Below, in pieces: positions 33,724-34,673 of a stretch of DNA of 64,000 bases. Both the position numbers and the translations under genes were made by a program. Source of the DNA: Bacillota bacterium (GTDB lineage: Bacteria; Bacillota; Clostridia; Lachnospirales; Anaerotignaceae). Numbering within the stretch: the stretch's first letter is position 1; every line of letters begins with the position of its first letter. Below the pieces are notes generated by a model that saw only the letters and a program-made list of their open reading frames with translations, did not search any database and was not told where the DNA came from. The stretch covers positions 1 to 64,000 of the forward strand of contig JAETUG010000001.1 of the NCBI GenBank assembly GCA_021768705.1, read 5' to 3'.

Positions 33724-33758
33724 CAAAAAAAGTCAGGCATCTAAAAGGTAGATGCCTA
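33724..33758 (-). terminator. Terminator of trhA
   Basis: CAGGCATCTA and TAGATGCCTA arms with a 5-base loop; on the minus strand, T7 follows. Confidence 0.75.
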
Positions 33759-34492: not shown

Positions 34493-34514
34493 ACTTTCAG
34501 CTCCTTTGCAACAA

Positions 34515-34531
34515 GTAGTTTTTAATACTAC
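34515..34531. promoter_or_regulatory. 17-bp inverted repeat, operator A (trhA side)
   Basis: GTAGT-N7-ACTAC. It lies just downstream of a minus-strand -10 TATAAT (34542-34537), at the likely transcript start of trhA. Same arm and spacer lengths as operator B. Confidence 0.6.
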
Positions 34532-34596
34532 ATATCATTATATCGATATGTTAACACATTATTCTTGCTATTTCAAGGGAAATTTTCGATAAAAAC

Positions 34597-34625
34597 TTGC
34601 GACATAGTTTAAAATACTATATAAT
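34597..34625 (+). promoter_or_regulatory. DUF1836 gene promoter with operator B in the spacer
   Basis: TTGCGA (34597-34602), 17 bases, TATAAT (34620-34625). The spacer contains ATAGT-N7-ACTAT (34604-34620), a second 17-bp inverted repeat that differs from operator A by symmetric outer-base changes. Confidence 0.65.
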
Positions 34626-34673
34626 GATGAAGTTAAGAAGTTTATTTTTTTCAGAATTTCGAGGTGAAGAAGT

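Follow-up and report, generated by a model that had tools for sequence, protein, structure and literature searches.

A putative operator shared by DUF1836, trhA and degV genes of Bacillota points to a probable MerR-type repressor of lipid homeostasis

Within the 64,000-nucleotide stretch of Bacillota DNA analyzed here (the window), a gene of the DUF1836 family and the membrane-protein gene trhA (hlyIII) are transcribed divergently, and the gap between them carries two inverted repeats. Which protein recognizes these repeats, and which genes does it control? The identity of both gene products is clear from profile searches. The DUF1836 protein matches PF08876 at E = 6e-35 (119.9 bits, cut-off 27) over profile positions 2-104 of 105. 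It is 90% identical to that of an Anaerotignum species (L035), the closest named genome identified, which makes Anaerotignum the probable genus of the window. The trhA product matches PF03006 at E = 4e-50 and passes the NCBIfam TrhA equivalog model NF011669 (207.6 bits, cut-off 80).

A regulatory connection between these two families has been proposed before. The 2011 CREST paper reported that, in STRING, hemolysin III genes neighbor DUF1836 genes and, separately, DegV genes, and from this gene neighborhood it proposed that DUF1836 regulates hemolysin III (PMC3146951). The gene pair and the idea of regulation are the same as those considered here, but that proposal came with no operator, regulon or test, and it did not join DUF1836 and DegV into one regulon (PMC3146951). 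No report of a DUF1836 operator, regulon or experiment was found in the literature searched, with subscription papers and preprints falling outside the search, and the operator with its promoter geometry appears to be new, as does a regulon that joins trhA and degV. DegV and hemolysin III also change together in published pneumococcal transcriptomes, but too unspecifically to count as support.

The divergent gap and its promoters

The trhA-DUF1836 gap measures 181 bp from start codon to start codon (34493-34673), and its features are collected in Table 1. The original prediction described two inverted repeats of equal 5-7-5 geometry in this gap, one of them between the -35 and -10 elements of the DUF1836 gene, and direct reading confirms both points. 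The two repeats are perfect, GTAGT-TTTTAAT-ACTAC on the trhA side and ATAGT-TTAAAAT-ACTAT on the DUF1836 side, and the latter occupies the whole 17-bp spacer of the DUF1836 promoter (TTGCGA-N17-TATAAT) and touches the -10 element. The other repeat had been placed at the start point of trhA, which holds approximately. As there are two candidate -10 elements, trhA transcription would start near 34541 or 34531, and the repeat sits approximately at, or just downstream of, this likely start. TTG, TATG-TA and ATATAAT elements recur among 63 operator-anchored trhA promoters.

Table 1. Genes, promoter elements and putative operators around the trhA-DUF1836 gap (window coordinates).
Feature	Position	Strand	Location	Basis
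DUF1836 gene, 193 aa; product predicted to be a winged-helix repressor of MerR type with C-terminal helices	34674..35255	+		PF08876, AlphaFold2
trhA / hlyIII (PAQR family), 223 aa	33821..34492	-		Pfam, NCBIfam
DUF1836 -35, TTGCGA	34597-34602	+		promoter scan; TTG-type -35 with 17-bp spacing in homologues
DUF1836 -10, TATAAT	34620-34625	+		promoter scan; ACTATATAAT conserved in homologues
Candidate trhA promoter, TTGAAA-N17-TAACAT, upstream TG	34576-34571 and 34553-34548	-		promoter scan
Alternative trhA -10, TATAAT	34543-34538	-		read directly
Putative trhA-side operator, GTAGTTTTTAATACTAC	34515-34531		~22 bp before trhA start codon	read directly
Putative DUF1836-promoter operator, ATAGTTTAAAATACTAT	34604-34620			read directly; same promoter-operator fusion in homologues

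The sequence common to the repeats, TAGT-N7-ACTA, occurs twice in the 64-kb window, both times in this gap, against 0.32 copies expected by shuffling. In dinucleotide shuffles of the AT-rich gap, a pair of perfect 5-7-5 repeats of any sequence arises in 5.3% of cases versus 0.005% for a pair of TAGT-N7-ACTA, and it is therefore the arms common to both repeats that matter. At the level of sequence, the decisive evidence that the repeats are real is their conservation in other genomes.

Two further elements lie nearby. A third, imperfect inverted repeat (ACATATC-N8-GATATGT, 34530-34551) overlaps the trhA promoter and -10 region, and its ATATCGATAT portion is found again in genus members. Between trhA and ABC exporter genes, the element GGCATCTA-AAAGG-TAGATGCC (33736-33757) is followed on the minus strand by a run of T and so may be the trhA terminator, or else an operator for the two exporter genes. 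A string resembling it, TAGATGCCTAACTATTTTAT, is found near a MarR gene at another locus (L019).

Conservation of the repeat and its target genes

DUF1836 is present in 30 of 40 relatives. The same repeats occur in the DUF1836 and trhA promoters of these relatives, and a string like TTGATACATAGTTTAAAATACTATATAAT precedes most DUF1836 genes. Among 137 distinct DUF1836 upstream regions, the exact TAGT-N7-ACTA is found in 69, compared to 1 of 614 background windows, and a matrix score of at least 12 is reached in 106. The operator is fused to TATAAT in 67 of the 137 regions; the best -35 lies at 17 bp in all of these fused promoters (67/67), and 66 of the 67 have a -35 with at least four matches to TTGACA. 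Named Clostridia loci have the operator before DUF1836 even where trhA is not adjacent, and at one locus (L016) where trhA has been relocated away from the DUF1836 regulator, it retains its own operator copy. DUF1836 loci sampled at the level of the phylum also carry the operator, sometimes as ATCTAGT-N7-ACTAGAT, and about half of them have an hly or degV neighbor. From these comparisons, we consider the two repeats to be copies of a putative operator that is conserved across Bacillota.

Two aspects of this conservation deserve a closer look. Across the window and its relatives, 16 distinct divergent loci have less than 100 bp from operator to operator; the distance is 88-90 bp in 11 of them, and two others have 98-99 bp. 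These spacings differ by about one helical turn, and spacing between the operators could matter, or the recurring distances may be explained by close relatedness. Additionally, a shorter form of DUF1836, without the first 10-30 profile positions, has no operator and no hly/trhA or degV neighbors (L027-L030, L293-L295). We therefore restrict our claim to full-length DUF1836, and the Pfam family probably spans at least two functions.

The genome that contains the window is 85% complete and was scanned for further sites by pattern searches, with coverage counted as sites with at most two mismatches to the 21-mer. TAGTW-N5-WACTA is found at four places, which are the two gap repeats, the promoter region of one DegV gene, and a coding region (C31:1562); this last site was rejected because it lies inside the coding region, without the flanking bases. 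Allowing up to two mismatches to the 21-base pattern brings in one more site, 69 bp upstream of another DegV gene. Five sites differ from the 21-mer at no more than one base, at DUF1836, trhA, degV (C34:38698), degV (C10:96272) and C13:47110, the last of which was discounted for its matrix score of only 11.6. The trhA site scores 25.4 and the two degV sites, which stood outside the matrix training set, score 20.0 and 17.5, with 11.6 as the next best score in the genome. Both degV targets clearly belong to the DegV family by Pfam and NCBIfam (208.5 and 142.9 bits). They reach 108.6 and 59.8 bits against the FakB1 equivalog cut-off of 350, and are termed “FakB-like” only for this reason.

The same set of targets recurs in other genomes. 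In 45 family genomes, strict sites precede DUF1836, hly, degV and a FabK-like gene, along with a few other genes, and the FabK-like target of these relatives is of the nitronate monooxygenase family and is located beside a FabT-like gene. Sites in the wider order precede degV, hly, DUF1836 and the gene for an 89-residue protein, with a minority before unrelated genes. In one family of the order (L161, L162, L165), the operator precedes the gene of the 89-residue protein (MNAKELQKYFKEHLVPSKLYKIGG...), for which there is no Pfam or NCBIfam match; from the position of the operator, the protein is a possible further regulon member.

The original prediction had tied DUF1836 to its own gene and to trhA, and proposed a check for the repeat in related loci. 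With that check run, the prediction was not refuted, as the repeat is kept upstream of DUF1836 and trhA across the order and the phylum, including at unlinked trhA genes. The prediction is incomplete in that it names trhA where several genes are probable targets, and a putative lipid-homeostasis regulon composed of trhA, degV/fakB-like genes and, in relatives, fabK-like genes appears to be a better description than the trhA link alone.

The binding protein and competing explanations

The distribution of the sites points to the protein that binds them. Of 30 trhA promoters from genomes with full-length DUF1836, 22 have the site, and for 10 of these 22 the flanking sequence covered contains no DUF1836 gene. 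The repeat is missing from trhA promoters in all DUF1836-less genomes with upstream sequence (0/24), which is consistent with a regulatory link (Fisher 1e-8 for the contrast, with genomes treated as independent). The one exception to this pattern, L201, is at a contig end in an 82%-complete genome. Over 146 genomes of the order, again treated as independent, the strict 21-mer is present in 42 of 75 with full-length DUF1836 versus 5 of 71 without (p = 1e-10). The reversed control pattern, in the same 146 genomes and under the same assumption of independence, gives 24/75 versus 11/71 (p = 0.02), a weak trend only that may reflect genome size or composition. The 33 of 75 genomes with full-length DUF1836 in which the strict 21-mer is missing have degenerate or variant sites. 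One 99%-complete genome (G049) has the operator before degV (C44:37194; L127), yet no DUF1836 or HlyIII match; the adjacent DUF1836-HlyIII pair may have been lost together, or may lie in an assembly gap.

Based on this co-occurrence, full-length DUF1836 protein very probably binds the TAGT-N7-ACTA operator. The most invariant residues of the protein are found around 27-35, 57-66 and 76-78, which fits with an invariant operator. There is a small probability that a different protein, co-inherited with DUF1836, binds the sites instead.

The predicted structure of the DUF1836 protein suggests how it would do so. The AlphaFold2 model (mean pLDDT 89.6) shows a winged helix of MerR type, with long helices C-terminal to it. 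A plain Foldseek search of the model against the Protein Data Bank gave nothing below E 0.001, and the MerR-type assignment comes from a second look at the predicted structure with VIA-align, in which the top seven rows are all MerR-family chains at moderate Z-scores of 5.2-7.8 and the next row falls to 3.7. The best row is 3gpv (Z 7.8, 101 residues, 2.8 Å), and CueR, CadR with DNA and GlnR with DNA (4r4e) are also in the top rows. By sequence, the protein matched no MerR family model (Pfam gives DUF1836 only, NCBIfam nothing), and a sequence search of the Protein Data Bank found no relative.

A comparison with GlnR and TnrA, Bacillales regulators of the MerR superfamily, is instructive, as they also combine a 17-bp operator with an N7 center, normally spaced promoters and a MerR-type winged helix (PMC6191146). 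Their operator is TGTNAN7TNACA at optimally spaced promoters (PMC6191146), whereas the DUF1836 half-site is TAGT and departs from this consensus. The DUF1836 system also differs from GlnR/TnrA in that its targets concern lipids instead of nitrogen, its C-terminal part is different, and its sequence has no family match to MerR. TnrA, which is also MerR-type and shares this operator geometry, acts mainly by activation (PMC6191146), and by analogy DUF1836 protein might bind these sites to repress itself but activate trhA and degV. This is rather improbable, as the spacer of the DUF1836 promoter is the standard 17 bp (67/67 fused promoters) and not the non-optimal spacing of MerR activators, and the trhA site at or after the start point would be in a repressing position.

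A MarR-type, FabT-like regulator is another candidate for binding the sites, since several relatives have a site in the interval that separates the fabK-like gene from the FabT-like gene encoded beside it. We find this very unlikely, given that the genome of the window carries the sites yet has only weak MarR matches (23-31% identity), and that none of eleven DUF1836-less genomes that encode both trhA and a clear FabT-like protein (E 3e-23 to 4e-47) has a site at trhA.

The core of a FapR box reads TAGTA..TACTA. FapR of Bacillus and Staphylococcus is an autoregulated repressor whose 17-bp inverted repeat is positioned inside lipid-gene promoters or just downstream of them (PMC5052256, PMC3536700), and with lipid genes as targets here as well, the repeats could be FapR boxes and DUF1836 merely one FapR target. 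However, no FapR scored over the cut-off in the 40 nearest genomes (0/40) or matched in the window's own genome (85% complete), while the B. subtilis control was positive, and the sites track DUF1836. FapR also senses malonyl-CoA through its own effector domain, whereas the DUF1836 model resembles MerR proteins, and control here would fall on trhA and degV, not on the main fab/pls operons. FapR as the binding protein is highly improbable. Lastly, two arbitrary 5-7-5 repeats do occur in 5% of gap shuffles, but the idea that the repeats are chance palindromes of AT-rich intergenic DNA is refuted by the conserved sequence, position and target genes across the order and beyond.

Proposed mechanism and its meaning

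Our preferred reading, to which we give a probability of roughly 80%, is that DUF1836 is an autorepressor that ties trhA to fatty-acid handling by means of a MerR-type dimer on the palindrome, with lipid state as the probable signal. We infer that the full-length protein acts as a dimeric MerR-type repressor and that the dimer binds a 17-21 bp palindrome with the consensus A-Y-R-TAGT-W-N5-W-ACTA-Y-R-T. Occupying a standard spacer, or lying at or after the start point, would put an operator in a repressing position. At its own promoter, the operator fills the 17-bp spacer between the -35 and -10, and for this reason bound DUF1836 would keep RNA polymerase off the promoter, resulting in negative autoregulation; the self-repression proposed originally fits with this arrangement. 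The operators of trhA, the degV/fakB-like genes and, in relatives, the fabK-like gene either overlap the core promoter or lie closely downstream of it, and repression would occur likewise there.

The regulon would couple a PAQR membrane-homeostasis protein with fatty-acid binding or uptake and, in places, synthesis, and lipid state is the probable inducing signal because of this coupling. Free fatty acid, an acyl carrier or a DegV/FakB protein could be the inducer. GlnR is controlled by glutamine synthetase, and on that model full-length DUF1836 proteins could make up a widespread, unrecognized class of lipid-homeostasis repressors controlled by contact with lipid-loaded or empty DegV/FakB, not through a small-molecule pocket, which we regard as unlikely. 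Control of trhA by E. coli FabR offers a parallel, since trhA is part of an unsaturated-fatty-acid regulon there and cells that lose TrhA show changed fatty-acid profiles and membrane potential (PMC9017321). This parallel also makes a lipid signal seem likeliest, although regulator, operator and organism group all differ between the two systems.

These findings give a domain family of unknown function, found across Bacillota, a putative DNA-binding site, a set of targets and a role that is open to testing. The bacterial PAQR protein TrhA would be tied to fatty-acid handling through one regulator, and the DUF1836 repressor would add a further type of lipid regulator next to FapR and FabT.
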